Positions 12,146 through 61,218 of a DNA stretch of 64,000 nt are shown piece after piece. Position numbers and translations under genes: made by a program. The number at the start of each line of letters is the position of its first letter. The stretch's first letter is position 1. The stretch lies in NCBI GenBank assembly GCA_938035525.1, contig CALHOI010000003.1, positions 1 through 64,000 on the forward strand. The letters are read 5' to 3'. The notes under the pieces are model-generated. The model was not told where the DNA came from, searched no databases, and saw nothing but the letters and a program-made list of their open reading frames with translations. The stretch is from an uncultured Granulosicoccaceae bacterium (GTDB lineage: Bacteria; Pseudomonadota; Gammaproteobacteria; Granulosicoccales; Granulosicoccaceae).

Positions 12146-15100
12146 TTTTCTTGCTCCGCGTAGGCGTCAGGATTGACTTCGACGCTTATCAATTGCATCA
12201 ACTCTTCGCCCAGATTCTCGGCCAGGATGCGTCGAATACTCTCGGCCCGACGTTCTGCCAACGCAATGTTGTATTCGTAACTGCCCCGTGAGTCGGTATG
12301 GGCTTCTATCAGGATTTGCCCACCACCGTATTCTCTAAGTTTGTTAATAATGTCGATGACAATGCCCTGCTGGTCAGCACGCACTTCATGCTTATCGGTG
12401 TCAAAAAAGACCGAACCCAGGCTCACTTCAACACTTTGATAAATACGCTCTTCTTCATTGTGTTCACACAATGCACTACTGCGATTCAGGTAAGGATCTT
12501 CATCGGGTACATTGACACCAAAGTTGATCTTGTTAAGTGATGCGTTAATAATGCGCAACACATATGGGTTTTCTGTGGTGAATCGCGCACCTTGCGGTAA
12601 CGATGCCGGGTCTACTTTTAATACAAAGTTCTGACCAATGCCGGTTGTGCCTGCATCCACATCTGGAATACTGTAACGACCATAGGCATCAGTCTGAATC
12701 AGTAAACCTGTGACAGTGGCCAAACGAACACCGGGTATACCCTCTTCGTTTAAGCCATAGTTTTGTATCACTATCTGCAACACATCAGACGGCGCGCCAT
12801 CATTTGGTGTTAATCCTGATTGGTCGGTGGGCACAGCGTTTAATCGTTGCGTGCAAACGCGAATGTCCTGACCATTGAGGCCGCGGGCTTTGTCACCAAC
12901 ATGGGCCTCGCTCACTGTGCCTTCATGATCTACAGTGATGCGCGTGCCTTCACGGGTTAATATCATGAATCGGTTGTCTTCAGACAAAGGCATGTTGACT
13001 GTTGTTGCAGTATCAGCCGGGTCGTCATTGACACTGTCACGGCCAGGAATCGGCGGCAGGGCTAAACTATTCCATCCATAGTAATTACTGCGCAACGACA
13101 TACCTGTGGCACCTGCCGGATCTTGCGCGCCATCTGAATCCCGATCATTAAACACTTTGCCCACTAGAGTGGCTTGTTCCAATACCGGATCAGGCACTAA
13201 CTCAACGGTTGCCGATACGGTATTACTGGCTATACCGCCAGGACCAGAAGCACTGGCTTTATTGGCATACGCTCCAGCAACCACGCCCACGCCAACGCGC
13301 ATAACGTATTTAAACTGAATGGTCTCGGCAGCGGCAAAGTTAACTCTGCCCAACATAATGGGGTTAAGGTCACTCGGGGTAAGCGTTTGCACCACATCAT
13401 CAGCGCTATCAAATTCACCATCAACACCAGCGCGTATCATCCGTACAGAATTTGCCACCAATGAAAAACTCGCTGGCGGTTCATCAATAATGGTGATATC
13501 CGGTGCTGGGACGTCTTTGGTGTTCTCGGCGATTAATGTATATTCAACCAGTGAACCTACCGAGACGCTGCGCTTGTCTGCGAACTTGCTCAATAGCAAC
13601 TGTGCATCGTTAGCACGCGCATCAATGGGCAGGTGATTAAAAATGATGTTCTGATCACCTGACTGCACATAGAATTCAACAAAATAGTCGGTGTTTTGGG
13701 TATCGACAGGCGCATCGGGTTGCGCCTGAACCTCACACGCATTGGTACCCGGTAATCGGTCCACCGTACAGTTGCCTTCGTTGGGGTCAGCATCAAACGT
13801 TGTCGATACAGCACATCCCAAGGTAGCGTCGCCACAGGCGTCCGCACCAACTTGACGAATAATGGACGAGAAGTTCGGGTGGTAGTCACTAGGCGCATTG
13901 GCAATTTCTATGGCATAGGAACCTATTGATGGACAAGTAACATGCGCACCCGGAATCAAATTAAACGCATACAGGCCATCGGCCAAGGTCACTTGAGATT
14001 GTTGATTGGCAAACAGGCAATCAGCATGCAATAAGTCGCCGTTACCGTTCACCATGTTCAAGGTCACGCCAGCCACAGCTTCACGACTGATGCTGTCGTA
14101 CACAACACCACCGGGGTCAACGGGCAACGGTAAGTTAACCACCTGCCCAGCCGCAACAATCCCTTCAGTGGATTGCGAATCCATGAACACACCGTTCTCG
14201 TTAAAGAAGTGCACAGTGAACGCACCGGGAATCAGGCCTTCCACAAGGTAGTAACCATTGGCATCGGTAACCGTGGTTGCCACCAGAACACCACCGGCGT
14301 CATAGACTTCTAATATCCAGCCCGCCTTTAATTCCTCACCTGCACTGATTTGACCATCGCGATCACTGTCGAGCCACACAAAACCTTCTAATGCGGCCGG
14401 CGCTTCATACGTTATCGTCAGATTGGCAAAATTGGATTCTATGTTAGTGCTGTCAGACACAACATATTGCTGTACCGTGGGGTCAGTTATAAAACCTGCA
14501 TCAGGTGTAAACGTTATGTCTCCGTTAACAGGATCAACGCTCCAAACACCTTCACCATCTATCTCCAGGGCGGTTACGCGTTGCCCGGTTTGCGGGTCAA
14601 TCAGTTTTACACTGCTTGGATCAAGGTTATTTTCCGGGTCGGTATCGTTAGCCACTGTGGCTAAAATGACAGGCTGACCCAATGATTGATCGAGCTTCTC
14701 ATCATCAATGGCACTTGGCGCGGTTTGCGGATAATCCACCGTGATTAATGCCTGATTAGAAACCAAACCGTTAATGTCAGATACTGTGTAAGTGATCGGT
14801 GTAGGGTCTAACAAGAAGCCTGCTAGTGGTGTGAAAGTGACATTGCCGGTGGCGTTATCCACCATCCAGGTACCTTCCCCGGCAACCACCAGTGTGTCAT
14901 TGTCACCATCGCCATCCGAATCGGTTGCACCGTTACCCGTGAGGTTAACGCTTTGACTATCTATGTCGTTTTCAGGATCGTTGTCCGCACCATTGCCGTT
15001 GTCAGCCAACACATTGACTGTGGTTGGATTGGATGGACTTGGGACTTGTAAATTCTGTTTGTAATCGTCTTCGGCCACTGGCGCTGTTTGCGGGTAGTTC

Positions 15101-17691
15101 ACCAGCAGTTGCGCTACATTGGATACAAGACCGGTTGCATCGCTGACAGAATAGCTGATGGGTGTTGGGTCAGCTGTAAAACCTGGCTGTGGAGTGAAAG
15201 TGATTTCACCGGTGACATCATTTACTAACCACGTACCCTCGCCAGCCACTGTCAATGTATCGTTGTCACCATCACCATCAAGGTCTATAGCACCAGCATC
15301 CGTCAGATTAACCGTGCTTACGAGTAAATCACCGTTATTGTCAAGGTCGTCCACCGCACCAGCCAGAGTCACCGGCACGGCACTCACTGGCGAATTAAAA
15401 CTGTTGTCGGTAGCAACGGGTGGCACCCTCAGCATGGGCACTACCACCGTGTTACTGCTTGCAGAGATTTCCGTGTTGTTTGGATCGGTTGCCGTAACGG
15501 AGGCCACGTTAACAATTTGCGTGGCTGTTATATCGTCAATGACAACACTTCGGGTGGCCGTACACGTAGTTTGCTCGCCAGGCAGTAGTGTAAAAGGTTG
15601 CACCAGCGCGCAGCTTAAGCTACCCGGATCAGCAATCGGGTCAGCAACCACAATATTGCTTAAGACAACATTGCCCGTGTTTGACACGGTGAAGGTGTAG
15701 TTAATGGTATTACTGATTGACGTAAAATCTGATTCAACCGCCGTCTTTACAATAGTGATGGCTGGTGCTTGAGCCACATTAGTAACAGCTGTGTCTGATT
15801 GTGTTCCCGCTTGCGCTGTGCTGACACTTACCGTGTTGGTTAACGCAAGCCCGGCATCAACATCACCTTGAGTGGCACTGAACTGTGCCAGGTAAGTCCA
15901 GCTTTCAGCAACATCCAACACACCGACACTGCCAATGTCAGCTATTGGACCCGATATAACAGCAGGTGAACCATCTGGTAAGGTATCACTGATAACAATA
16001 TCGGTAAGCGATGTATTGCCCGTGTTTTCTACGTTTATCTGATAACTTAATAAACCCGGTGCGGCAATACTGGTTTGATCAACGGTTTTTTCCACCACAA
16101 ACGAAGGCGTTCTGTTGATGGTGGTTTGCGCAGTATCACTGATGCTGTTTGTGCCAGTTTGCGTGCTGGTAACACTGACCGTGTTGGTTCTAACCAGGCC
16201 TAGATCTATTTCTGATTGTGTAACGTTATAACTGGTGGTGTATTCCCACGACTCGCCAACATCAAGCTGACCGGCTATGCCAATATCAGTTATCGGCCCT
16301 ACCAAAGTCGCGCTGGTGCCGTCAGGCAGTGTATCCACAAGCGCAACATTACTCAGGCTCACATTACCTGTGTTAGACACTAAAATCTGATAGTTCAACT
16401 GTCCGGGTTCGCTCAATGATGCCGTATCAACCGTTTTAGATACTTGCATCGCCGGCTCACTAACTACTTGCGTTATCGCAGTATCAGTAACCACAGCGGG
16501 GCCGGTTTCATCAGAAGTAAAGTTAACTTCATTGACCAAATCGCTGGTGGCGTCAATATCGGCTTGAGTGACGCTGTAACTGGCGGTGAAATCCCATTGT
16601 TCGCCTACGTCTAGCGCATTGGTGATGCCGGTATCATTCAATGGTCCAGCAACAACACCAACGCTGCCATCAGGCATGACATCGCTTGCCTGCACATTAT
16701 TAAGCGTAACGTTACCTGTGTTTCGTAAAGATATAACGTAGCTAAGCGTGCCTGGTGCATTGATACTCGCCAGATCAACCACTTTCTCAACTTCCATAGC
16801 CGGCGATACCGCAATACCGGTTTGCGCTGAATCCGTTTGCGCGGTTGTTCCGGTTTCAGTTGAGGTCACAGACACCGTGTTAACCAAGGGCACTCCCGCA
16901 TCGATCTCACCCTGAGTCACGTTGTACGTTAAGGTGTAAACCCAGGTCTCACCAACATCAAGCGCGTTAGACGTGCCCGTATCAGCCGCTGGTCCTGATA
17001 CGGTGCCGGTGGAGCCATCAGCCAGGGTATCGTTCAACGTGATACCGGTTAAGGTTTGATTACCTGAATTACTGACTTCAATGGAGTACTGCAATTGAGT
17101 CGGCGCAGATACAGTCAATTTGTCGACCGTTTTATTAACTGTAAAAGCTGGAGCTTGTGTAATTGGCGCATCAGCGCTATCACTGATCGGGTCAAGCTCG
17201 TTGGTCGCAACCGTTACCGTGTTGTCGATATCACCATCACCACCGCCAAACGAATCTATATCAGCTTGGGTGATGGCGTAGGAACCCACATACACCCACA
17301 CTTCATCGGCATCGAGCACGTTGTCGTTGTTTAGATCGCCTGCACTTAACGATAAATTGGCGGCCGGTATAATGGTGTCGGTTAAAACAACGCCGGTTAA
17401 ACCAAGTAAGCCGATATTATCAAGCGATATGGTGTAGTTGATTAAGTCACCGACCTGAGTGGGTGAAGACAATCCGGAAGCATCTGCTACTTTGGTTACA
17501 GTTAAACCTTTGGGCTTAACCAACACAGCGCTGTCGTTATTTACGCCATTATTCTCAAACTGAGTTGAGTCAGAAATAACCGTCCCGGTATTAGTGAAGT
17601 CGACTGTGGTTAGCGCATAGACCGACGTCAGCCCTGATCCTAAGAACAGGGCTGCCGTGGCACTTAGCAGCTTAACCAGAAGACGATTCAT
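12142..17691 (-). CDS. Giant DUF11/CshA-type/SdrD-B-like protein with C-terminal OmpA domain
   Basis: 1849 aa. Signal peptide 1-26; then a lone strand TVDFTNTGTVIS (29-40) and linker resembling the end of a DUF11 domain. Six DUF11-like (DUF7507-type) repeats span about 62-755. Three CshA-type fibril repeats lie at about 757-1096 (GEGTW...ITFTP). An SdrD B-like module (LDSDRDGQISAGEE) is at about 1100-1165, another complete DUF11 at about 1368-1495, carboxypeptidase-regulatory-like modules at about 1500-1740, and an OmpA peptidoglycan-binding domain at 1752-1849 (EAHTDSRGS, ERRAESIRR). The OmpA domain stops before its usual closing GxxxP...NRRV segment, which appears at the N-terminus of the next protein. 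Probably a long periplasm- or surface-spanning stalk anchored to peptidoglycan. Confidence 0.82.
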   Translation of the reverse strand: MNRLLVKLLSATAALFLGSGLTSVYALTTVDFTNTGTVISDSTQFENNGVNNDSAVLVKPKGLTVTKVADASGLSSPTQVGDLINYTISLDNIGLLGLTGVVLTDTIIPAANLSLSAGDLNNDNVLDADEVWVYVGSYAITQADIDSFGGGDGDIDNTVTVATNELDPISDSADAPITQAPAFTVNKTVDKLTVSAPTQLQYSIEVSNSGNQTLTGITLNDTLADGSTGTVSGPAADTGTSNALDVGETWVYTLTYNVTQGEIDAGVPLVNTVSVTSTETGTTAQTDSAQTGIAVSPAMEVEKVVDLASINAPGTLSYVISLRNTGNVTLNNVQASDVMPDGSVGVVAGPLNDTGITNALDVGEQWDFTASYSVTQADIDATSDLVNEVNFTSDETGPAVVTDTAITQVVSEPAMQVSKTVDTASLSEPGQLNYQILVSNTGNVSLSNVALVDTLPDGTSATLVGPITDIGIAGQLDVGESWEYTTSYNVTQSEIDLGLVRTNTVSVTSTQTGTNSISDTAQTTINRTPSFVVEKTVDQTSIAAPGLLSYQINVENTGNTSLTDIVISDTLPDGSPAVISGPIADIGSVGVLDVAESWTYLAQFSATQGDVDAGLALTNTVSVSTAQAGTQSDTAVTNVAQAPAITIVKTAVESDFTSISNTINYTFTVSNTGNVVLSNIVVADPIADPGSLSCALVQPFTLLPGEQTTCTATRSVVIDDITATQIVNVASVTATDPNNTEISASSNTVVVPMLRVPPVATDNSFNSPVSAVPVTLAGAVDDLDNNGDLLVSTVNLTDAGAIDLDGDGDNDTLTVAGEGTWLVNDVTGEITFTPQPGFTADPTPISYSVSDATGLVSNVAQLLVNYPQTAPVAEDDYKQNLQVPSPSNPTTVNVLADNGNGADNDPENDIDSQSVNLTGNGATDSDGDGDNDTLVVAGEGTWMVDNATGNVTFTPLAGFLLDPTPITYTVSDINGLVSNQALITVDYPQTAPSAIDDEKLDQSLGQPVILATVANDTDPENNLDPSSVKLIDPQTGQRVTALEIDGEGVWSVDPVNGDITFTPDAGFITDPTVQQYVVSDSTNIESNFANLTITYEAPAALEGFVWLDSDRDGQISAGEELKAGWILEVYDAGGVLVATTVTDANGYYLVEGLIPGAFTVHFFNENGVFMDSQSTEGIVAAGQVVNLPLPVDPGGVVYDSISREAVAGVTLNMVNGNGDLLHADCLFANQQSQVTLADGLYAFNLIPGAHVTCPSIGSYAIEIANAPSDYHPNFSSIIRQVGADACGDATLGCAVSTTFDADPNEGNCTVDRLPGTNACEVQAQPDAPVDTQNTDYFVEFYVQSGDQNIIFNHLPIDARANDAQLLLSKFADKRSVSVGSLVEYTLIAENTKDVPAPDITIIDEPPASFSLVANSVRMIRAGVDGEFDSADDVVQTLTPSDLNPIMLGRVNFAAAETIQFKYVMRVGVGVVAGAYANKASASGPGGIASNTVSATVELVPDPVLEQATLVGKVFNDRDSDGAQDPAGATGMSLRSNYYGWNSLALPPIPGRDSVNDDPADTATTVNMPLSEDNRFMILTREGTRITVDHEGTVSEAHVGDKARGLNGQDIRVCTQRLNAVPTDQSGLTPNDGAPSDVLQIVIQNYGLNEEGIPGVRLATVTGLLIQTDAYGRYSIPDVDAGTTGIGQNFVLKVDPASLPQGARFTTENPYVLRIINASLNKINFGVNVPDEDPYLNRSSALCEHNEEERIYQSVEVSLGSVFFDTDKHEVRADQQGIVIDIINKLREYGGGQILIEAHTDSRGSYEYNIALAERRAESIRRILAENLGEELMQLISVEVNPDAYAEQEK

Positions 17692-17721: not shown

Positions 17722-20700
17722 CTAAGGCGCGTTAACGGTGGCCTGAAACGTCAGGCTGACGGGCGAACCAACTGGAATCGAGTTAATAGTCCACGTCAAA
17801 CCAGCACCAGTGGGGTCAGAGTCATCAGTCGCATCTCCGCCTCCCATTGAACTGCCAACATAAGTAAAGCCTGCTGGCACTGGGTCAGTTACCGTGACAT
17901 TGGTTGCCACATCAGGACCAGCGTTGTTGACCTCTAGCGTAAACGTGATGGTCTGACCAATGTTTGGCGTGGCATCGTCAACCGTTTTGGCGATCGTTAA
18001 ATCGATACCCAAATCGTTGTTGGTTATAGAGCACGTCACATCAGAACCTGGCAGCAAGGAGATATCAGTTCCTGTTGCCGTGCCAGCCGATGGCAAGCCA
18101 GTGGTTAATCCATTGGCATCCACACAAGCCCAAGTGCCTTCCGCATAAGGGACCAAATCAAGCTCGCTGATGGTAATAAGCGTATTGGCTGTAACCGTCG
18201 TTGCTGTACCGCTGACGACTTCTGTCCCATCTATTGAAATATCGAAGTCTTCAATGGCTTCAGTACCGCCGTTATCGTTAACAACGGTTTTAACCAATGT
18301 CAGAGTCGGAGCAACATCATCGTTGGTGATTTCACACGACACCTCTGAGCCTTGTTTTAATACAATCGACTCACCTGTCGCAGCACCGGCTGTTGGCAGA
18401 CCACTGGTCAGCGCTGTGGCATCGGTACAAGACCAAGTACCTGATGTGTAACCAGCGATGGACAATTCTGAAATGATGATAGCTGTATTCGCAGCAACGG
18501 TATTGATGGCACCATTGGGAACCTCGGTTCCGTCAATGGCAATATCAAAATCGGCCACCAGCTTGTCACCGCCGTCATCATTAACCACTGTCTTGCTCAA
18601 GATCAGTGTTGGCGCAATATCATCATTCGATATCACACACTCAACCACTGCACCCGATGCCAATATGATGGTTTCGCCAGTGGCCACACCAGCACTTGGC
18701 AAGCCTGTGGTTAATCCCGTAGTGTCAGTACACGACCAGGTACCCTCGGTGTATCCCGGCAGCGCGAGTTCGCTGATTAAAATAGCGCCATTCGCCGCAA
18801 CGGTATTAACCGCGCCGTTGACAACTTCAACAGTGTCAATCGATACGTCGAAGTCTGCAACGGTCAAGTCACCACCATCATCATTAACCAGTGTTTTGGT
18901 CAGCGTTAGCGTCGGCGCGATATCGTCATTGGATATGGCACATGTGACGTCAGAGCCTGGTAGCAGGTTAACCGTGGTACTGGTGGCCAATCCTGCGCTC
19001 GGCAGACCTGTGGTTAAGCCGTTGGCGTCCGTACAAGCCCAGGTGCCTTCGGTGTAACCGTCAAGATCAAGCTCAGACAAGGTCAAATCAACATTGGCCA
19101 ATACAGTATTGGCAATACCACTGGGCACTTCGGTGGCATCAAGAGATATGTCGAAGTCATCGACAAGCAACACACCACCATCATCATTAATAACGGTTTT
19201 GGTTAGCGTAATGGTTGGTGCGATATCGTCGTTAGTAATTTCACACGTTACAATGGCACCTTCAGCTAAATTCACCGTTGTACCACTGGCTGCACCTGCA
19301 GCTGGCAGACCAGCGGTTAGGCCGGTGCTATCGGTACAAGCCCACGTGCCTTCGGTGTAGCCATCGAGATCAAGCTCTGAGATAACAATGCCTGTGTTGG
19401 CAGCGACAACCGTATTAACACCGCTAACAACCTCTGCACCATCGATAGAAATATCAAAGTCTTCAATGACTTTATCGCCACCGTTATCGTTGGTTAGTAC
19501 TTTTACAAGCGTTAACGACGGTGCTACATCATCATTGGTAATGGCACAAGTGACATCGGCACCAGGTTCAAGCGTGATACTTTCGCCCGTTGCAGCACCG
19601 GCAGCCGGTAATCCTGTTGTTAAACCGTTTGCATCGGTACAAGCCCAGGTGCCTTCGGTGTAACCTGGCAGATCCAATTCAGAAATAGTGATAGCTGTGT
19701 TAGCTAATACCGTATTGGCAGCGCCGTTAACCACCTCTGTACCATCGATAGCAATATCGAAATCGTCGATGACACTGATACCACCATTATCATTGACCAG
19801 TGATTTCGTTAAGGTTAGCGTTGGTGCAATATCGTCGTTCGATATAGAACACGTGACGTCCGCACCAGAGGCCAAGTTAATTGTTTCGCCTAATGCCACA
19901 CCAGCAGCAGGCAATCCAGTGGTTAGCGCATTGGCATCAATACATTCCCATGTGCCTTCGGTGTATCCGTCAACATCCAGCTCTGCTATCACAATGTCGG
20001 TATTGGATAATACGGTTGTAGGTACACCAGTAGTCACACCGGCACCGTCCACGGAAAGACCAAAATCCAGTGCAACCAGATCACCACCGTTGTCATTAAC
20101 CACGGTTTTTGCCAGTGTTAATGTTGGTGCAATATCGTCATTGGTAATCGAGCACGTGACGTCGCTACCTGAGGCTAAGGTGATTGACTCACCCGTAGCT
20201 AAGCCAGCTGTGGGTAAACCTGCGGCAAGCCCGTTTGCATCAATACATTCCCAGGTACCTTCGGTGTAGCCGTCCACGTCCAGTTCACTGATGGTTAGCG
20301 CAGTGTTTGCCAATACTGGGTTGGCAACGCCATTAGCCACTACCGTGGCATCTATAGAAAGCGAAAAATCGGCATCAGTTAATATACCGCCGTTGTCATT
20401 GGTGACTGTTTTCGCCAGCGTTAACGTAGGTTCGATATCATCATTAATAATGGTACAAACCGTTTGCTCACCAAATGCCAAAGTCACCGACCCTGAGTCA
20501 AACGTATCGCTGCCTACAGTGCCAACGGTACAAGACCAACTGCCCTCGGCATAGCCATCAAAATCAAGCTCAGTTAACGTGTATGTACCCGGTGGTACAT
20601 ATAAAGTGTCGGAGGTAAATGTTGTCGTGGCCCCTGCCGCCACACCCGCATCGAAGTTAAGGGTGCCTGCGCTGCTGGTCACCGCAAAATCGGCTAGACT

Positions 20701-20967
20701 CGCAACCCCGCCATGATCGTTAACAACTTGCTTGACCACAATCAACTCAGCATTCGGCGTGATTTGAACCGTGCTGGTGTTGTTGCTGATGTTGGTTTCA
20801 AACTGCGACGACGACGCAGTCACCGTTGACTGATTCAAATAGTCGCTTAATCCCAGCGACCAGGCAGTCAGTGGAACACTGAGCCCCACCAGCAACAAAC
20901 CTATTTGAGAGCGTTTGTTCATTTTACGAAAAGGCTTCATAAACGCAGGCTTTAAAGATAATTTCAT
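17722..20967 (-). CDS. Secreted repeat protein: nine prealbumin-like repeats plus truncated DUF11
   Basis: 1081 aa. A long n-region and signal peptide end near residue 37. Then SDYLNQSTVTAS (41-52), which resembles a DUF11 final strand, and a linker with NNTSTVQITP. Repeat 1 is divergent (about 73-180). Eight near-identical 101-residue repeats fill 181-988, each containing a VNDNGG-like turn, ISELDLDGYTEGTWACTDA-like core, and ending C-x-I-x-NDD. Each holds paired Cys residues, so disulfides are likely after export. The last 93 residues (989-1081) are a DUF11 domain ending SLTFQATVNAP without its terminal strand. Best read as a rigid fibre shaft. It starts 15 bases after the previous gene. 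Confidence 0.8.
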   Translation of the reverse strand: MKLSLKPAFMKPFRKMNKRSQIGLLLVGLSVPLTAWSLGLSDYLNQSTVTASSSQFETNISNNTSTVQITPNAELIVVKQVVNDHGGVASLADFAVTSSAGTLNFDAGVAAGATTTFTSDTLYVPPGTYTLTELDFDGYAEGSWSCTVGTVGSDTFDSGSVTLAFGEQTVCTIINDDIEPTLTLAKTVTNDNGGILTDADFSLSIDATVVANGVANPVLANTALTISELDVDGYTEGTWECIDANGLAAGLPTAGLATGESITLASGSDVTCSITNDDIAPTLTLAKTVVNDNGGDLVALDFGLSVDGAGVTTGVPTTVLSNTDIVIAELDVDGYTEGTWECIDANALTTGLPAAGVALGETINLASGADVTCSISNDDIAPTLTLTKSLVNDNGGISVIDDFDIAIDGTEVVNGAANTVLANTAITISELDLPGYTEGTWACTDANGLTTGLPAAGAATGESITLEPGADVTCAITNDDVAPSLTLVKVLTNDNGGDKVIEDFDISIDGAEVVSGVNTVVAANTGIVISELDLDGYTEGTWACTDSTGLTAGLPAAGAASGTTVNLAEGAIVTCEITNDDIAPTITLTKTVINDDGGVLLVDDFDISLDATEVPSGIANTVLANVDLTLSELDLDGYTEGTWACTDANGLTTGLPSAGLATSTTVNLLPGSDVTCAISNDDIAPTLTLTKTLVNDDGGDLTVADFDVSIDTVEVVNGAVNTVAANGAILISELALPGYTEGTWSCTDTTGLTTGLPSAGVATGETIILASGAVVECVISNDDIAPTLILSKTVVNDDGGDKLVADFDIAIDGTEVPNGAINTVAANTAIIISELSIAGYTSGTWSCTDATALTSGLPTAGAATGESIVLKQGSEVSCEITNDDVAPTLTLVKTVVNDNGGTEAIEDFDISIDGTEVVSGTATTVTANTLITISELDLVPYAEGTWACVDANGLTTGLPSAGTATGTDISLLPGSDVTCSITNNDLGIDLTIAKTVDDATPNIGQTITFTLEVNNAGPDVATNVTVTDPVPAGFTYVGSSMGGGDATDDSDPTGAGLTWTINSIPVGSPVSLTFQATVNAP
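18004..20427. repeat. Eight in-frame 303-bp tandem repeats
   Basis: Residues 181-988 of the encoded protein divide exactly into eight units of 101 aa, so the DNA divides into eight 303-bp units (2424 bp). The units are well conserved in protein but differ at many silent and some replacement sites, so they are old enough to have diverged and the assembly here is unlikely to be collapsed. Unit number could still vary between strains by recombination. Confidence 0.85.
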
Positions 20968-20982
20968 TTCATCAACTCGTCA

Positions 20983-22854
20983 TTAGGGTGCCAACACCGT
21001 CGCCTGAAATGTCAAAGACACAGACGAACCAGAAGGCAGAGTGTTGATTGTCCAATCCAAACCCGTTCCTGCAGGAGAGCTGTCGTCTTGAGCATCACCA
21101 CCTGTCATGGACGAGGCAATGTAGCTAAAACCAGCTGGAACGGAATCCAATACATGTAAGTCAGAGGCGGTGTCCGGGCCACTGTTTTCTATTAATAAAG
21201 TGAATGTCAGCGTGTCACCTATATTGGGTGCGTCATCATTCACCGATTTTTTAATGCTCAGGTCGACTGCCTGATCGTTATTGGCAAATACACAAGTTAT
21301 TTTTTCGCCTGCCACAATATCGAGACCATCGCTGGCATCACTGTCGCTGCCATCACACTTGATACCGTCGAGGCTATAGCCATTGAGAGCACTTTCACTC
21401 AGGGTATAACTACCCGCCGGTACCGTGACTCCGGTAATCGCCGCATCACCCATTACGCCAGACCCGTTGGCACTGGCGCCCGAGAAACTCAACGTAAAGT
21501 CAGACACCACAGCTGTACCGCCGTTGTCATTAACGATTTGCTTTTCAAGTGTCAGCGTTGAAAAAGGGTCATCATCGTTGGTGATGGTGCAGATGGCGTG
21601 ATCACCGCCAACGACCTCTATCTTTGGGCCACTGGCAGTCGTTGCACCTGTGCATACCCATGCACCGGTTGTGTATCCTGGCATGGTTGTTTCTGCCAAG
21701 ATGTATGTACCAGGAGTAACCACGGCTTTTGTCACCGATGCAGTGCCACTGACACCCGATATGGAATCAGTGCCGGTGGCACTTAAAACAAAGTCGGCAA
21801 TAGTGGCGGTACCACCATCGTCATTAATCAGATTTTTAATCAGCGTGATTTCGGCACCAGCAAATGCCCAGTAGTAAACCGGTTCGTTAGTGTGATTACG
21901 AGACGTATCGCCCGTGAAGGTGTCTTCATCAACTGCCAGATTGATTGCATTGGCCGGCAAGGGCGTAGCACTGTATAAAACCGCGTAGCTGCCATTACCA
22001 CCATCTTCAGCGCCCTGCGTCAGTACAGCCATGGTGTGATCGCGAGAAACGTTATAGGTGTCACCCGTGTTGCCCGCATTGTTACCGGCAACCGTGTCAG
22101 AACCCAGAGCCAGCTCGTAAAAAACATTGTTGATCGTGCCACTGCCAGTTTCCCCGATAATGTATCCGATGGTTTCGGGGGCGCGGGAATCGGCGATTTG
22201 ACCAATGTGCTTGCCAACACAAATACTGTTTGGATTGGCTCCACTGAACGGATGATCTCGGCGAGATGCGCAGTTAGTGATATACGGCACACTGGCACGG
22301 TTATCGTTGTAGCTCATGACGGACGCTTGCACGACAGGCGCGCTGTAGCTGTGCACAATGCTCGCACTGACATCTTCCATCAACGCCAGCGACCATCCGC
22401 CATCCGTTGCAAATTGTCCATTGGTTTGATCGGACAACACGCTGTGTGCTTCAACTAATCGACCATCAGGTAAGGTGTGCGCACCTTCCTCCATGATCAT
22501 GCAATGCACATCGCCTGCAGACGCACTGGAGTCTTCCCAACCCTGGATTCTGACCTGGAAAGAACTGGCGCCGATGTTTCTGATACGTACCACAGCCGGT
22601 GGATTGGTGTAGTTAGGGTTCGCGCCAGCAAACGTCTCTAGAACGTAAGTACAGACGGGAATTGCATTGGTGTAGGTGTTATCCAAGGACACCGTGGTCC
22701 AGGCTGTGGATACATTGGGCACCAAAACCGACTCAAAGTACGGGGTTAAAACCAGCGCCCTGGCGTTTTGCGCGCACAGCACAACACTCACCAACAGCAA
22801 AAGCTGCAGCAAGTTCACTCGCTGTTTGTTCAAATATCGCGGAAACGCTTTCAA
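20983..22854 (-). CDS. Secreted protein with lectin-like N-terminal domain, two prealbumin-like repeats and truncated DUF11
   Basis: 623 aa, first gene of the operon. TTG is the only plausible start: a stop codon lies directly upstream and no clear ribosome-binding site is visible. Signal peptide ends near residue 33 (NARA). Residues 34-335 form a beta-rich region of unknown fold (TAWTTVSLDNTYTN, PAVVRIRNIGASSFQVRIQG, MEEGAHTLPDG); it resembles an H-type-lectin-like module often found at the ends of large surface proteins, from memory of the family. Repeats at 336-430 and 433-528 match those of the next gene. DUF11 at 531-623 ends SLTFQATVLAP, lacking its last strand. No lone strand sits at the N-terminus, as expected for a fibre tip. 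Confidence 0.75.
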   Translation of the reverse strand: MKAFPRYLNKQRVNLLQLLLLVSVVLCAQNARALVLTPYFESVLVPNVSTAWTTVSLDNTYTNAIPVCTYVLETFAGANPNYTNPPAVVRIRNIGASSFQVRIQGWEDSSASAGDVHCMIMEEGAHTLPDGRLVEAHSVLSDQTNGQFATDGGWSLALMEDVSASIVHSYSAPVVQASVMSYNDNRASVPYITNCASRRDHPFSGANPNSICVGKHIGQIADSRAPETIGYIIGETGSGTINNVFYELALGSDTVAGNNAGNTGDTYNVSRDHTMAVLTQGAEDGGNGSYAVLYSATPLPANAINLAVDEDTFTGDTSRNHTNEPVYYWAFAGAEITLIKNLINDDGGTATIADFVLSATGTDSISGVSGTASVTKAVVTPGTYILAETTMPGYTTGAWVCTGATTASGPKIEVVGGDHAICTITNDDDPFSTLTLEKQIVNDNGGTAVVSDFTLSFSGASANGSGVMGDAAITGVTVPAGSYTLSESALNGYSLDGIKCDGSDSDASDGLDIVAGEKITCVFANNDQAVDLSIKKSVNDDAPNIGDTLTFTLLIENSGPDTASDLHVLDSVPAGFSYIASSMTGGDAQDDSSPAGTGLDWTINTLPSGSSVSLTFQATVLAP

Positions 22855-53989: not shown

Positions 53990-55287
53990 TACCCACCCCG
54001 CGTCTACTTTGGCTTGGCGTTTTATTGGCAGCAAGCGCGCTACCGCTGGCTTATAACTCGGCCCTGTTCGTACCATGGCTTATTCTGCCTGCAGCGTTAC
54101 TGTTGCTGACGGTGTTCGATTGGCTTAGCGTGCGCAATATAAAACTAGCAGGTACTCGAAGCATACGAAACGTACTGTCACACGGACAGTGGAACGACGT
54201 GGGTCTTAACATAAGCAACACCAGCAAAAAAAACGTGAATCTGATGGTTCATGACTTGCACCCACAGTTGTGTCAGGTTCGAGGGCTTCCTCGAAAACTG
54301 AGCTTACCGGCTCGAGAAACCACACGCATAAATTATGAGAGCATGGCGAAAGTTCGTGGCCAAATGAACTTCACCGGTATAGACACCCAGGTGTCCACCG
54401 TCTTGGGTCTGTGGTATCGGCAAAGTGTTTTACCGTGTAAAAGCAGCGTTAAGGTTTACCCGAATTTTAAAAACAGCAAGCTATTCGGTTTATTACTCAG
54501 CAAGCGGAATCTGGACAACATGGGTGTTCGCCGCTTGCCACGCCCCGGCGAGGGAAGCGACTTTCATCAGCTACGCGAATACCGCGAAGGTGACAGCTTA
54601 AGGCAGATTGACTGGAAAGCAACCGCCAGAATGCAAAAACTGATCGCCAGAGAGTACGCACAAGAGCGTGATCAGCAAATTGTGTTTTTACTGGATTGCA
54701 GTATGCGCATGCGACATCAGGACGAGCGCTCATCGCACATGGACGACACATTAAATGCAGTGGTATTGCTGTCTCATGTTGCACTACAACAAGGTGATGC
54801 TACAGGCATCATGACCTTTGGTGGTGTTGATCGCTGGATACCACCTGCCAAAGGCATGCGTGCAGCACGTCGCCTTATGGACGGTCTCTATGATTTGGAA
54901 GCCACGCGTGAATTACCCGACTATGTGCAAGCGGTTGAAGCACTTGCTGTTAGGCTGCGACGCCGGGCATTGGTTATTCTTATTACCAACTTGCGTAACG
55001 AAGACGGACAATCTGCATTACGTGCGCTACAGCGATTAAAAGGCAAACACCTGGTGCTTATGGCAGACCTTCGCGAATCAGATTTGGATGCGGCGATAAA
55101 AAGTGAACCCACGAACACCGAAGAAGCCTTACTGTGGCTTAGCGCTGAAAATTATCGACTGGAACGAGTCAGGCAGCATAAACTTGCCACAGCAAGCGGT
55201 GCAAAGCTTATTGATGTGGCGCCGCGTGATTTATCGGCCGATTTAATTACAAGATACCTGGCTATAAAGCGCCTTGGTCAGCTTTAA
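53986..55287 (+). CDS. DUF58 (vWA-like) protein
   Basis: 433 aa, GTG start overlapping the MoxR stop (GTGA). Two N-terminal membrane helices (about 4-40), a beta-rich region, then the DUF58 signature LREYREGDSLRQIDWKATAR near 200-220 and a vWA-like fold with a partial MIDAS: DCSMRM in place of DxSxS. Predicted partner of the MoxR ATPase in a membrane complex. Final gene of the operon; its 3' end overlaps the convergent glycosyltransferase gene by 4 bases. Confidence 0.93.
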   Translation: MIPTPRLLWLGVLLAASALPLAYNSALFVPWLILPAALLLLTVFDWLSVRNIKLAGTRSIRNVLSHGQWNDVGLNISNTSKKNVNLMVHDLHPQLCQVRGLPRKLSLPARETTRINYESMAKVRGQMNFTGIDTQVSTVLGLWYRQSVLPCKSSVKVYPNFKNSKLFGLLLSKRNLDNMGVRRLPRPGEGSDFHQLREYREGDSLRQIDWKATARMQKLIAREYAQERDQQIVFLLDCSMRMRHQDERSSHMDDTLNAVVLLSHVALQQGDATGIMTFGGVDRWIPPAKGMRAARRLMDGLYDLEATRELPDYVQAVEALAVRLRRRALVILITNLRNEDGQSALRALQRLKGKHLVLMADLRESDLDAAIKSEPTNTEEALLWLSAENYRLERVRQHKLATASGAKLIDVAPRDLSADLITRYLAIKRLGQL

Positions 55288-56405
55288 GTATCGGCCGTAA
55301 ACAACTGCTCGTATTGATCAACCATGTGCTGCATATCGAAGTGCGCCAGTGCATAAGATTGCGCAAACGCTGACATACTGCTCAATAGCTCGGGGTTGGA
55401 GAGTATTTTTTCAACTGCATCAGCCAGTGCCAGCGGGTCTTTTTCAACCAGTATGCCGCCAAACTGATTGTCTTTAATCGCAATGGCATCAGCTGAACCA
55501 CCCGCTTTGGTCAAAACAACCGGGGTTCCGGCTGCCTGTGCTTCCAGCGCGGTAAGCGGGTGCCCTTCTCTGTCGGATGACAACACAAACACATCCAGCG
55601 CTGATAATACATCTGGTATGTCTGATCGTGCGCCTGCAAGGACAACATGATCTTGAAGCTGTTTGTTTTCAACGGCTGCTTCTATGTCTGGCTTTAGTTC
55701 TCCATCGCCAACCAAAATCACTTTGAAGTTATCCAGCCTGGTTTTCAATGCATCCACCATCTCCAGCAACCGGTTATGATTTTTCGCACTGACCATTCTG
55801 CCCACAGTACCAATCAGCGTCTCGTTGTTAGGCGCCCATTGTGCTCGTAACGCTGCACCATCACCAGCGGCATAGCGTTGTGTGTCTACCCCGTTATTAA
55901 TCACACACACCAGGTTTTGCGCAATACCGATATCTTGGGTGTAAAAGTCTGCCGTGTCGTTAGATACAGCGACTAACTTTCTGGTTGATTTGGCCAGTAA
56001 CCTATCCAGGGTTTTATAGTGCGCCGGTTTCCATGTATCACGACTGTGTTCAGTCACCACAACCGGAATACCACTTCGCAGTAAACTTAGGCGCGTCCAC
56101 AAGTTAGCTGTCCACAGGTGACTGTTTACCGCGGTGGGGTTGATGCCTTGAATTAACGCTCGCAGGCGACGTGGTAAGCGTAAATCCGCACCGGGATTTT
56201 TGTTGAGTACGTGTAAATGCACATCGGTATGGAGCTTCTGTGCTAATTCGCCCTCTTTGGTTAAACACACCATGTGGACGTGCCAAGATTTGGCAATAAA
56301 CTGATTGGCCATGGCCACCAGCATTTGCTCAGCACCACCCACAGTGAGCGCCTCAATGCAAAAAACGATGGTTTTGTCGTTTGCTGAATTCACAAAAATA
56401 GCCAC
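55284..56405 (-). CDS. Family 4 glycosyltransferase
   Basis: 373 aa, GTG start uncertain (a second GTG lies four codons later). GT-B fold: N-terminal GGAEQMLVAMANQF acceptor-side loop; C-terminal nucleotide-sugar domain with GTVGRMVSAKNHNRLL and the EX7E-type stretch SDREGHPLTALEAQAAG. Probably transfers a hexose during exopolysaccharide or lipopolysaccharide assembly at the cytoplasmic face (family knowledge). It lies 20 bases downstream of a second glycosyltransferase on the same strand, so they form a small operon. Confidence 0.88.
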   Translation of the reverse strand: MAIFVNSANDKTIVFCIEALTVGGAEQMLVAMANQFIAKSWHVHMVCLTKEGELAQKLHTDVHLHVLNKNPGADLRLPRRLRALIQGINPTAVNSHLWTANLWTRLSLLRSGIPVVVTEHSRDTWKPAHYKTLDRLLAKSTRKLVAVSNDTADFYTQDIGIAQNLVCVINNGVDTQRYAAGDGAALRAQWAPNNETLIGTVGRMVSAKNHNRLLEMVDALKTRLDNFKVILVGDGELKPDIEAAVENKQLQDHVVLAGARSDIPDVLSALDVFVLSSDREGHPLTALEAQAAGTPVVLTKAGGSADAIAIKDNQFGGILVEKDPLALADAVEKILSNPELLSSMSAFAQSYALAHFDMQHMVDQYEQLFTADT

Positions 56406-56425: not shown

Positions 56426-57688
56426 CTACGTGACTTTACCAGGCACATAACGGTTGAATAAATCAATCAGCTCATCGATGTTTTTCTGCTGATCAAATAG
56501 CTGGCCGACTTTAGTGAATCCGTTTTCACTGATTGACTGGGCAAGCTCAAGGTCTTGCGCAACGGCTGCAATGGCTGCAGCAAACCCTTCCACATCATCA
56601 ACCTCAACCAGTTGCCCGGTTTTCCCTGACTCCAGTAGTTCGGGTATCGCACTGACCCGCGTGCTGACCACCGGTACGCGCAGCGCCATCGCTTCTGCGA
56701 TGACATTGGGAATACCATCGGGTGGGTGCCCCGGTATTAAGCGCGGTGCCAGACAAAACATATCGGCTTGCTCAAGCGTGGAGAGCACGTCTTCAAATGC
56801 CAGGCCACCACGAAACACAACGGCGTCTTCCACAGATTCACTGCGAGCCAGCGCATGCAACTCGGTGTCTATTGGACCAGAACCAATAAGTTGCAGTTCG
56901 AAGTCAATATTGTATTGCCGACGTAACAATCCACACGCCTTAATCAGTACGTCGTGCCCTTTCGTTGGCACAAGCCTGCCAATACTAACGAGCTTAAGCT
57001 TCTGGTTTTCGCTGCGCTCGTTGAAGGTACGCTCACTTGAGCGCTCCATGACCCTAGGGTCCAGGCCGTGATAATTTAGGTGGACATCTTCAGGCTGTTT
57101 TAAATCCAGTTGGTTTTGCAGGTGGTTACAAAAATAACCGCTGCAGACCACACTGAATGCAGCATCGTCGAGTTTGTAACTTAAAAATCGATTGGGTGAA
57201 AATATATCTTCACCATGAATGGCAGCTGACCAGGTGACACCGTGTATCTGTTGTAAAAACCAGCAGGCAGTGGTCGGGATGTTAGCCCAGTGCCCATGCC
57301 AATGCTCAATGCCCCGCGCTGAACCCAATTGATAAAACCGCAGAGTCAAAGGCAATATGGCCAGATTTTTAACGATGTCCATGGGCCTGTCACGACCGTG
57401 CCAGATCACCTTGGCAATTGCCTTAATCGTTTTGACTGGCCGGGTCAACAGGGTGACAAAAAACGCCTTAAGCGTGGCAATGGTAATCAGCTTTTCATAG
57501 CTTGTGCGTTCTTCACTGAGACGAATAGCATCATCGATAGTAATGGGGTCGCGCGGAAACTGCAGACTGAAAATATCAAACTGCAGGCCACGCTTTTCCA
57601 GCGCCACAAGTTCGCGCAGAATGAAGGTCTCATGCAGCTCGGGAAACATCGAAATGATGATTCCGAAGCGCGGTTTTGAAGAATCCAA
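56426..57688 (-). CDS. Family 4 glycosyltransferase, WcaL-like
   Basis: 420 aa starting at TTG 57688, supported by AGGA six bases upstream; no ATG is suitably placed. The N-terminus FGIIISMFPELHETFILREL is typical of colanic acid/EPS transferases of the WcaL type. C-terminal GT4 domain with SIGRLVPTKGHDVLIKA and GHPPDGIPNVIAEAMA. Likely cytoplasmic-face assembly of an exopolysaccharide repeat unit; no polymerase or flippase gene is nearby, so the pathway is incomplete in this window. Confidence 0.87.
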   Translation of the reverse strand: MDSSKPRFGIIISMFPELHETFILRELVALEKRGLQFDIFSLQFPRDPITIDDAIRLSEERTSYEKLITIATLKAFFVTLLTRPVKTIKAIAKVIWHGRDRPMDIVKNLAILPLTLRFYQLGSARGIEHWHGHWANIPTTACWFLQQIHGVTWSAAIHGEDIFSPNRFLSYKLDDAAFSVVCSGYFCNHLQNQLDLKQPEDVHLNYHGLDPRVMERSSERTFNERSENQKLKLVSIGRLVPTKGHDVLIKACGLLRRQYNIDFELQLIGSGPIDTELHALARSESVEDAVVFRGGLAFEDVLSTLEQADMFCLAPRLIPGHPPDGIPNVIAEAMALRVPVVSTRVSAIPELLESGKTGQLVEVDDVEGFAAAIAAVAQDLELAQSISENGFTKVGQLFDQQKNIDELIDLFNRYVPGKVT

Positions 57689-57739: not shown

Positions 57740-58135
57740 CTAACCATTGCCTTTTTTACGCAGCCGGCGCGTTGATGTTCTGAACGCCAATGGTATGGTG
57801 ATACAGGTAAACAGATAGGCAATAGCCACGCCGAATCCCTCAACAATGGACTCTTTGCCCCACCATTGAGACACTGGTGTTGTATCCAGGCCGGAGGGCC
57901 AATAGACGTAAACCCCGAAAGCCAGAATGACAATGGCACAAAACAGCAGTATGCGTCCCAGTAAAGTTGTGAATCTGTGTGGCACGAATGCCGCCAGCCC
58001 CAGGGCCATGGCGGGAACCAGATAAATGATCGCCCAATAGATTCCGTCGTCGTCGTTGTACTGCAGTCCAGCAAAGACCAGCATAACCACCATCAGGAGC
58101 GCATAAACAATTGTCATTCGATTTCGCTTCTTCAT
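57740..58135 (-). CDS. TMEM220-like small membrane protein
   Basis: 131 aa with four hydrophobic segments (about 8-24, 32-52, 60-80, 102-120). The first loop has LQYNDDDGIYWAIIY, the LQxNDPDxxxW motif characteristic of the transmembrane 220 family, found from bacteria to humans and of unknown function. It precedes the glycosyltransferase genes on the same strand (51 bases), possibly in one transcript. Confidence 0.8.
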   Translation of the reverse strand: MKKRNRMTIVYALLMVVMLVFAGLQYNDDDGIYWAIIYLVPAMALGLAAFVPHRFTTLLGRILLFCAIVILAFGVYVYWPSGLDTTPVSQWWGKESIVEGFGVAIAYLFTCITIPLAFRTSTRRLRKKGNG

Positions 58136-58205
58136 TGCATCGGTGGCATGAATATATCATTTCAATCGCCCTCAGCGCAGTCAAAAGTGATCTAGAGAGG
58201 ACGAT

Positions 58206-59303
58206 ATGGCACCTCAATCCAACGCAAACGTCAATTTATCTGACACATCTCACGATCAGGGGGTCAATGCTGTCGAAGTGATGACGCTTGCGGACGCAGC
58301 CAGCGCTAACAAGCTACCCGTGTATTTCAATTCTTCACCGTTTTTACTCGATAATGACGCTTTGCGGGACATCATAGACAGTGTGGCCGTGCACCGGCCT
58401 CAGCCACTTTCGGTCATTATTGACGAGCGCACACAGGAGCAACACCCTGATCTGATGCTGAGTATCCAGACCTACTGCTATCACATTGACGACCTGATTG
58501 ATCTTCACACTGTTGAATTAGGCTCATCGAAAAAACCGCAAACCGAGCTCAGCTCGTTGCAACAATGTGCAATAGTGATTGGGCCACAAGCCCTGCTTAA
58601 TGCCATGCAGGCTGCCTATAGCGACGACAAAACGATTATTTACATTCCTGACAACCTTGATGATCAATTAAATTTACATCAGTTACTGCAGGCCGATCAG
58701 CAGCAAACCATCATTTGCCTGGTTAACACCGGCATGTACAGCGACGAAGATGAATTGCGCTTACGTTCGGGGTTGGTTCGGGCAGCAAACCTGGCCATCG
58801 CGCAGGATGCTCATTTATTCGCATGGATGGAAAATGATGCCAGCGAACTGATCAAACGCGACGCTGATGCTTTAGCCTATCTGATCATGCAATACTGTTC
58901 CGTTGCAGAAACCGATTCAACCCCGGCGGTGGAACGTGAATCTCAAGCTATTGAGCAAATTGTAAAAGCTGCGGGAGAGGCGTGCACATCAGCCGATGCG
59001 CAGGCTATGCTTATAGCGATGAAAGCGCATTTGTCGACAACCGAAGGCTCAATGGCTGAAGGTCAAGACATCAGGGTATGGCAACTGTTAAATGCACTGG
59101 GTTGCACGTTGTGGTTTGATTCGTTACAAAGCCATACCGTGCAAAGCGATATAGACTTGTTGGGTTTGACTCAGGTCGCCATGCTTAAAGAGCTTGGTGT
59201 ACTTGAAGAACCAAGTGTACTTGAAGCAGAGACACCTAAAACGCAAACCCTCAGTACCGACCATATCAAGTCCACTTTTCAGTGGCTAAGCGATCAGCAT
59301 TAA
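58206..59303 (+). CDS. AroB-like (dehydroquinate synthase fold) protein without catalytic residues
   Basis: 365 aa, close to AroB length. Residues about 178-251 align without gaps to the AroB C-terminal domain: SGL-x(9)-I-x(2)-D-x(3)-F-x-W-x-E, then L-x(3)-D-x(2)-A-x-AY-x-I-x(3)-C and VERES where AroB has DERET. The AroB residues needed for catalysis are gone: SGLAEVIK is SGLVRAAN here, and the GHTFGH zinc motif and GGGxxGD NAD loop cannot be found. The N-terminal half keeps the expected strand pattern (PLSVIIDERT where AroB has VMLVTNETL). Likely a binding or regulatory pseudoenzyme. AGAGAGGA precedes the start. An unsupported alternative is chance similarity. Confidence 0.68.
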   Translation: MAPQSNANVNLSDTSHDQGVNAVEVMTLADAASANKLPVYFNSSPFLLDNDALRDIIDSVAVHRPQPLSVIIDERTQEQHPDLMLSIQTYCYHIDDLIDLHTVELGSSKKPQTELSSLQQCAIVIGPQALLNAMQAAYSDDKTIIYIPDNLDDQLNLHQLLQADQQQTIICLVNTGMYSDEDELRLRSGLVRAANLAIAQDAHLFAWMENDASELIKRDADALAYLIMQYCSVAETDSTPAVERESQAIEQIVKAAGEACTSADAQAMLIAMKAHLSTTEGSMAEGQDIRVWQLLNALGCTLWFDSLQSHTVQSDIDLLGLTQVAMLKELGVLEEPSVLEAETPKTQTLSTDHIKSTFQWLSDQH

Positions 59304-59391: not shown

Positions 59392-61218
59392 ATGCAAGAC
59401 TCTCCTCTACTGACCATTGCCCTGCTCGCCGGTCTGTGCGCCATTTGCCAATGGTTAGCGTGGCGACTTAAACAACCTTCGATTGTTTTTCTGCTGACGG
59501 CCGGGCTGCTTGTCGGTCCCATACTGGGCATCTTCGACCCGACAGAGTCATTGGGCGATGCGTTATTCCCGTTTGTTTCGGTAGCGGTCGCCATCATTTT
59601 ATTTGAGGGCGGTTTAACCTTAAACCTGTCGGATATCAAAGGCCACGGGAAGGTTGTCACTCGGTTAATCAGTGTTGGCGTGCTAATCACATGGTTACTG
59701 CTAACCGTGACCGTGCATTTTGTGTTTTCCCTGTCCTGGCAGATATCGTTTGTGTTTGGCTCAATTGCAGTGGTCAGCGGACCCACTGTGATCAAACCTT
59801 TGCTGCGTACTGTTCGTCCTTCCGACAAGATTGGTCACTTATTGCATTGGGAAGGCATTCTTATTGATCCGGTTGGCGTATTCCTGGCGTTACTGGTTTT
59901 CGAGTATGTGTTACTGGGTCAACCGGGATTGGCTGCCACTAAAATCGCCATTATCCTGGCCAAACTGGTTGGCACTGGTTTATTGTTGGGTGTTGCCGCT
60001 GGCTACGCTGCCGAAGTGGCTTTACGCCGATATCTGATACCCGATTTTCTTAAAAACGTACTGACACTGATGTTTGTGATTATCGTGTTTGCTCTGTCTG
60101 AATCAGTGCAACACGAATCGGGTCTGTTAGCTGTGATAGTCATGGGTGTATGGCTCGCCAATGCACGTGGATTGCACATACACGAAATACTGCATTTCAA
60201 GGAAGACCTAACGGTTTTATTGATTTCAACCTTATTTATATTATTAGCCGCAAGAGTCGACTTAAGCAACTTGCCGTTTTTCCTTGGCGGTGTGTTGTTG
60301 ATGATTCTCATTGCGCAATTTATTATTCGGCCCATTAATGTCTGGGTATGTACATTGGAAAGCGAACTCAACAATCGTGAGCGACTGTTTCTTGCCTGGA
60401 TAGCACCACGAGGTATTGTGGCTGCTGCTGTATCGTCACTGTTTGCACTACGGCTAGAAGAAGTTGGCGTACCACAAACCGAATACTTGGTGCCACTGAC
60501 ATTCAGTTTAATCATTGGCACGGTGGTTATTCAAAGTTTCACCGCTAAACGATTAGCAGATAGTCTTGGCATCAGTAACCCCGAGCCTAATGGCGTGCTC
60601 ATCCATGGCGTTAACGGCATGGCTTTGGCCATTGGCACCGCACTGCGAGAGCAAAACATTAAAGTACAATACTCTGATACATCTTGGAGCAGCGTCAGAC
60701 GAGCACGACAATCCGGTTTTGAAGCCTACCATGGCAACCCGGCATCAGGGCACGCCGAAGAAAACCTTGATCTTCAGGGTATCGGTAAACTACTGGCACT
60801 GTCGACAAACAAAGATGCCAACGCATTAGCCGGCATACATTTTCGATCTGAGTTTGGATCTAACTCGGTTTTTACGTTGGAGTCGGCCTCTGACGATGAT
60901 GTTTTTGAACGCTTTGATATAGCCAATCGCCACAGAGGCAATGCCTTATTTGATGAAACGTTAAATTACTCGCGGCTAAAAAGATTGGTTAAGTCGGGGG
61001 ACGTGCACCACATTACGTTACCAGAAGCAGATACAAAAGAAGATGATGTAGCACAAGATAGCATCCGTGATGATGACCTTAAAATGTTTGCGATCAGCAA
61101 AGCGCGAAAATTACATATATACGGAGCGGCCGAGCAGTTCTCGCCAAAAGCGGGCTGGACTGTGGTGGTTTTAAGACAGAGTTTGGATAAACCCGCAGCA
61201 GATGGACAGGTAACATAG
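59392..61218 (+). CDS. CPA1-family Na+/H+ (cation:proton) antiporter with TrkA-like tail
   Basis: 608 aa. About 12-13 membrane helices in residues 5-395, including ILFEGGLTLNL and the ion-site region WEGILIDPVGVFLALL, where NhaP-type antiporters have an acidic pair. The soluble C-terminal part (about 400-600) is a degenerate Rossmann-like TrkA-N domain (NGVLIHGVNGMALAIGTAL) in which the GxGxxG loop is changed, so nucleotide binding is doubtful, plus a further regulatory region. Probably pH or Na+ homeostasis in the inner membrane. It lies 88 bases after the AroB-like gene on the same strand. Confidence 0.88.
   Translation: MQDSPLLTIALLAGLCAICQWLAWRLKQPSIVFLLTAGLLVGPILGIFDPTESLGDALFPFVSVAVAIILFEGGLTLNLSDIKGHGKVVTRLISVGVLITWLLLTVTVHFVFSLSWQISFVFGSIAVVSGPTVIKPLLRTVRPSDKIGHLLHWEGILIDPVGVFLALLVFEYVLLGQPGLAATKIAIILAKLVGTGLLLGVAAGYAAEVALRRYLIPDFLKNVLTLMFVIIVFALSESVQHESGLLAVIVMGVWLANARGLHIHEILHFKEDLTVLLISTLFILLAARVDLSNLPFFLGGVLLMILIAQFIIRPINVWVCTLESELNNRERLFLAWIAPRGIVAAAVSSLFALRLEEVGVPQTEYLVPLTFSLIIGTVVIQSFTAKRLADSLGISNPEPNGVLIHGVNGMALAIGTALREQNIKVQYSDTSWSSVRRARQSGFEAYHGNPASGHAEENLDLQGIGKLLALSTNKDANALAGIHFRSEFGSNSVFTLESASDDDVFERFDIANRHRGNALFDETLNYSRLKRLVKSGDVHHITLPEADTKEDDVAQDSIRDDDLKMFAISKARKLHIYGAAEQFSPKAGWTVVVLRQSLDKPAADGQVT

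Follow-up and report, generated by a model that had tools for sequence, protein, structure and literature searches.

Descent of an apparently non-catalytic protein from EboD in one clade of Granulosicoccaceae

The gene at positions 58206 to 59303 of the window (the whole 64,000-nucleotide stretch of DNA that was analysed) is a former eboD, as seen from homology, collinearity and chromosomal position. Its product, here called pseudo-EboD (pEboD), represents a real pseudoenzyme family that descends from EboD and is not a dead AroB. Taking identity and retention together, we consider it probable that this former EboD has been kept as a non-catalytic protein. An earlier note made from the DNA letters had read the same open reading frame as a full-length AroB-fold pseudoenzyme. 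The frame is exactly as described there (forward strand, ATG start, 365 amino acids), and the AroB superfamily, full length and apparent lack of catalysis stand, whereas the source has to be changed from AroB to EboD, a sugar phosphate cyclase related to AroB and encoded in the ebo operon. The features of the window on which the analysis draws are as follows.

58206..59303, forward strand: pEboD coding sequence, 365 aa, ATG start (open reading frame, EboD homology, orthologues).
58194..58201, forward strand: purine-rich ribosome-binding-like site, Shine-Dalgarno-like AGAGGA, just upstream of pEboD (by eye).
58737..58958, forward strand: residues 178-251, the part closest to AroB/EboD (phmmer to 3zok, 5eks and 6lk2).
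58767..58790, forward strand: residues 188-195, SGLVRAAN at the site of EboD AGMAEAVK, with the zinc Glu and the Lys lost (alignment, site table).
58806..58838, forward strand: residues 201-211, DAHLFAWMEND, the helix that pEboD sequences retain best (D, F, W, E; invariant columns of alignment A2).
57740..58135, reverse strand: TMEM220-family membrane protein, divergent neighbour (Pfam PF15071, tblastn).
56426..57688, reverse strand: glycosyltransferase GT2 (group 1), conserved neighbour (Pfam PF00534, loci maps).
55284..56405, reverse strand: glycosyltransferase GT1 (group 1/family 4), conserved neighbour (Pfam PF00534 and PF13439, loci maps).
59392..61218, forward strand: Na+/H+ antiporter with a TrkA_N-like region, a downstream flank as in the ebo cluster of relative G017 (Pfam PF00999, map L042).

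Profile comparisons place the window protein with EboD. It scores 71.5 bits against a profile of 30 EboDs and 23.9 bits against one of 29 AroBs; chance similarity was ruled out, since the maxima over 1600 shuffled sequences (4.4 and 6.0 bits, respectively) lie far under these values. Alignment of five pEboD to nine EboD sequences with hhalign is collinear and near full-length (columns 23-357 against 16-402, probability 99.9, E 3.4e-31), so the profile-profile search that the earlier note had proposed does return a significant match, to EboD. The NCBIfam model NF004852 (PRK06203, '3-dehydroquinate synthase') gives 54.9 bits (E 6.3e-15), where its cut-off is 333, and Pfam DHQS_C gives 21.3 bits (E 2.9e-4), under its cut-off of 27.6. 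Relatives carry a second, AroB-like protein of about 400 amino acids that reaches 568 bits for PRK06203 in G017. With this EboD, pEboD has in common near full-length collinear homology and the chromosomal position of the intact ebo cluster of G017; it differs in its 365 residues and in the loss of all NAD, zinc and catalytic motifs. With AroB it has in common the superfamily and about 70 recognisably similar residues. In phmmer searches of PDB sequences, residues 170-237 matched the Actinidia DHQ synthase 3zok (E 8.9e-5) and residues 184-253 matched 6lk2 (E 0.0069). Both alignments contain a one-residue gap, and the gap-free alignment of some 70 residues reported previously was therefore nearly right. 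A 42-row tree groups all eight pEboD sequences with EboD, apart from the four AroB rows (SH-aLRT 100); pEboD branches in it are saturated and fall outside a 24-row EboD group (SH-aLRT 98), which fixes the lineage no more finely. The G009 member was entered with differing start positions across the alignments and the tree.

Loss of the recognised active-site motifs is complete. Five motifs (GGGxxxD, GVKN/GGKT, EAxK, GHxxxH and HG[ED]A), whose zinc, NAD and catalytic ligands we assume to be those assigned in DHQS work, are absent from the window protein (0/5) and from all eight pEboDs; each is present in 29-30 of 30 EboDs and 28-29 of 29 AroBs. The 30 EboD rows exclude the G005 EboD, which is split over two contigs, and the row labelled AroB_G025 is really the pEboD region of G025 and was dropped from later AroB counts. 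The losses listed in the earlier note are thereby borne out: SGLVRAAN occupies residues 188-195 in place of the SGLAEVIK-type motif, the glycine loop and GHxxxH are missing, and catalytic and zinc motifs are gone. The NAD motifs are gone too, and orthologues with identical losses exist. Its suggestion of a sugar-like ligand finds no support, the zinc, NAD and catalytic motifs being gone. Of 16 positions that are (near-)invariant in 12 EboDs, a single one, the first Gly of the NAD loop, is conserved in the window protein, with front-half alignment to EboD uncertain; at the last of these sites it has Asp, as do three EboDs. What pEboD does retain is the helix with the pattern D-x-x-[LM]-F-x-W-x-E, in which D201, F205, W207 and E209 are invariant in alignment A2, together with a rear E-G...R...LL stretch that is also among the best retained parts. 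Structure prediction had likewise been proposed earlier. An AlphaFold (AF2) model from three sequences is poor (pLDDT 45.3, pTM 0.36); its secondary structure runs from alpha/beta to all-helical, which we take to be the order in DHQS. The best Foldseek match of this low-confidence model is the DHQ synthase 3zok (E 6.1e-5, probability 1.00, TM 0.31), followed by desmethyl-4-deoxygadusol synthase and butanol dehydrogenases of related fold at TM of about 0.3, which supports a DHQS-like fold weakly.

Clear pEboD members occur in five of 48 family genomes, namely that of the window (G000), G020, G004, G005 and G016, at E 7.5e-144 or better; across a wide gap, the next matches are intact EboDs at E 1e-36 or worse. 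Diverged members stand beside an AMP-binding ligase at the matching locus in G009, G021 and G025 (A2 profile, E 1.4e-5, 1.5e-7 and 3.4e-8, respectively). These three are probable members by sequence: we grade them so because the match of their profile to EboD is limited to the rear half (89%, E 2.3e-6), and because it reaches 77.9% against the five clear members. The AMP-ligase loci checked for pEboD were 20 regions plus those of G020, G004, G005 and G016, with the remaining AMP-ligase rows left out. Genomes with pEboD that are placed in an AroB tree form one clade (SH-aLRT 92), in a tree that lacks G020 (no AroB found) and a valid G025 row, and whose rooting may be disturbed by the long branch of the mislabelled AroB_G025. 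Across 369 class-level genomes, the window's own included, no further pEboD was found at E 1e-25 besides one frame of 407 amino acids, which at E 4e-28 lies within the range of intact EboD. A scan of 84,980 species genomes with a single short pattern returned two loci, both on MAG contigs of uncultured Granulosicoccaceae (CALJNA010000049.1 and CALDTX010000217.1), with matches as in G020 and G004; as G005 and G016 do not appear, either the scan is not exhaustive or those genomes were not included. A single-protein scan of genome contigs and an EboD scan of viral contigs returned nothing. Among the genomes searched, the five clear and three probable members all lie in one clade of the window's genus (family Granulosicoccaceae; marine bacteria).

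Chromosomal context ties the gene to the ebo cluster. The order in G017 is TMEM220, eboD, eboE, eboC, eboF (reverse), one open reading frame, eboB and the antiporter, and that in the window is TMEM220, pEboD and the antiporter, with no companion ebo genes at the locus; in G003, a GT2 homologue adjoins intact EboD. The ebo neighbours of EboD in G017 or other relatives include EboE (NF035939), EboA (NF035937/8), EboC (NF035940, under cut-off), a phosphodiesterase at the EboF position and a TatD-like hydrolase at the EboB position. All eight pEboD genes adjoin glycosyltransferases and/or the AMP-ligase, the G016 contig ending inside the latter. Seven of the eight carriers also have an intact EboD (G004, G005, where it is the split copy, G009, G016, G020, G021 and G025). 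Intact EboD, EboE, EboB and EboF were not found in the window's genome, whose assembly is 87.8% complete; as relatives vary in what flanks the second ebo cluster, this absence fits true loss and an assembly gap alike. An EboA_domain search of G000, G014 and G011 gave no match, and 14 controls were silent too. At the pEboD locus of G010, G014, G022 and G002 the block is present and the gene missing, and tblastn for remnants at these four empty sites gave chance-level matches (E 0.017 or worse); since it is absent at the same locus in four relatives, pEboD is dispensable. Of these non-carriers, G002, G010 and G022 have EboD and G014 has neither. One clade holds intact EboD, dead EboD both alongside an intact operon and where none was detected, as well as loss; the series gives a genetic means of asking which EboD parts are important for more than catalysis.

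There is a possible explanation for the retention of the gene. An ancestor may have lost the remaining ebo cluster while a leftover eboD stayed, and its product, freed from catalysis, could have been retained as a binding protein or scaffold. Most likely it would be a soluble, reduced DHQS-like scaffold with an alpha/beta front and a helical rear, acting by protein-protein contact. Lacking every recognised catalytic motif yet maintained at full length, pEboD probably has a new, non-enzymatic job. Partners might be intact EboD where present (seven of eight genomes) or products of the glycosyltransferase/AMP-ligase block, a choice that is a guess. EboD itself as the partner is rather doubtful, and the lack of a detected intact EboD in the window's genome (87.8% complete) speaks against that role there. 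More tentatively than the retention itself, we raise the idea of a new family of domesticated dead sugar phosphate cyclases in Granulosicoccaceae, serving as non-catalytic subunits or regulators that would exert prozyme-like control of the intact EboD or of the adjacent glycosyltransferase/AMP-ligase pathway.

The gene could instead be a decaying relic, an eboD turning into a pseudogene after ebo loss and open by chance or under weak constraint. Its divergence is very fast: pEboD of G000 and G020 are 40% identical, compared with 81% for the antiporter, 82% for GT2, 74% for GT1 and 60% for TMEM220, and relaxed constraint would give the same picture. The loss of every active-site motif and the lack of the gene at this locus in four close relatives also speak for decay. 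Against this, the G005 and G016 copies, the closest pair (74% identity), have dN 0.16, dS 1.76 and dN/dS 0.09, near the 0.07 of their AMP-ligases, with zero gaps in 367 codons, so that in these two genomes pEboD is not a pseudogene, and a plain pseudogene was rejected on this purifying selection. Eight frames of 358-410 codons remain open despite high or saturated synonymous divergence, those of G021, G025 and G009 aligning gap-free over 371 codons although only 44-49% identical, and the opening residues MA and the length are common to the A2 members. For the window copy, whose nearest relative is at 40% with saturated dS (3.67, ratio 0.17), we infer selection from the lack of stops and from the family. 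The family is constrained and fast-evolving, and a decaying relic is unlikely.

If pEboD were still an enzyme of this fold, diverged so that its active site has moved or its reaction has changed, this would fit the apparently kept scaffold and the strong conservation of the D-x-x-[LM]-F-x-W-x-E helix, and pseudoenzymes with migrated catalytic residues are on record (PMC10211241). The eight members, however, have no common His/Glu/Lys set or Gly-rich loop at the former sites, and subgroups A and B have few common residues beyond the helix, which makes such an enzyme distinctly improbable. The reading suggested by the earlier note, an AroB paralogue that is dead and controls the flux through the shikimate pathway, could draw on the weak AroB similarity. 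It was rejected because the EboD profile, far better than that of AroB and in agreement with the tree, and a locus corresponding to the ebo cluster of G017 fit better. A true aroB does exist elsewhere, as the earlier note had asked: the only other match in the genome, C6:13403-13603, is part of a full canonical AroB frame of 365 amino acids, standing behind a frame read by eye as shikimate kinase (aroK-like). Shikimate control is further unsupported by the neighbourhood, where no shikimate gene was seen by eye, and we hold this reading to be highly improbable.

For the fungal activator QUTA, a region resembling DHQ synthase has been described. The repressors QutR and GaaX are similar in sequence to domains of shikimate-type (AROM) enzymes, with activity thought lost and the proteins reused by protein-protein contact, according to the section of PMC6528562 relied on here; given this, the earlier statement that no group of dead AroB homologues is described needs softening. 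Neither a dead EboD nor a dead bacterial AroB came up in our literature search. QutR and GaaX comprise shikimate kinase, dehydratase and dehydrogenase domains and are eukaryotic and multidomain, unlike pEboD, to which we liken them by description. The trypanosome prozyme, in the excerpt of PMC6221367, is a dead paralogue that acts as a partner. Among cyanobacteria, Nostoc sp. PCC 7524 and N. punctiforme offer a parallel in lone or extra eboD genes that survive apart from the remaining ebo operon; loss of catalytic residues, found in pEboD, is not among the features described in the passages of PMC5133447 used, which speculate on sedoheptulose 7-phosphate as EboD substrate. The ebo cluster has been linked to precursor export in Nostoc (PMC6282210, in part). 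Automatic annotation could mislabel proteins of the pEboD type as 3-dehydroquinate synthase.

Several further observations were made. Three large frames of the window (17722-20967, 12142-17691 and 20983-22854) contain many internal repeated units by eye, and no DNA tandem-repeat arrays explaining them were found at score 100. The AMP-binding ligase and two glycosyltransferases form a block in relatives (L034:6836-8551, L035:1788-3506, L056, L058); the ligase has no match at E 1e-100 in the window's genome and is absent at its pEboD locus. The TMEM220-family membrane protein recurs by eboD, at 57740-58135 of the window and in the flanks (about 1.5 kb past the match) of 13 of 22 EboD loci by tblastn, which suggests that in this family the ebo cluster has a companion gene that has so far escaped recognition. 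An EboD-EboA fusion is encoded in G015 (L038:5600-7909) by a frame of 770 amino acids, with PRK06203 at residues 48-442 and EboA_family at 482-699, and G006 and G007 have similarly long EboD frames of 726-766 amino acids. Many relatives carry an isopentenyl-diphosphate isomerase-like Nudix gene inside the ebo cluster (L039:9736-10314, and at the same position in L040, L043, L044, L047, L049, L052, L057 and L060-L062); at 100.4 bits, under the cut-off of 127, it fits a prenyl step by a UbiA-like EboC.
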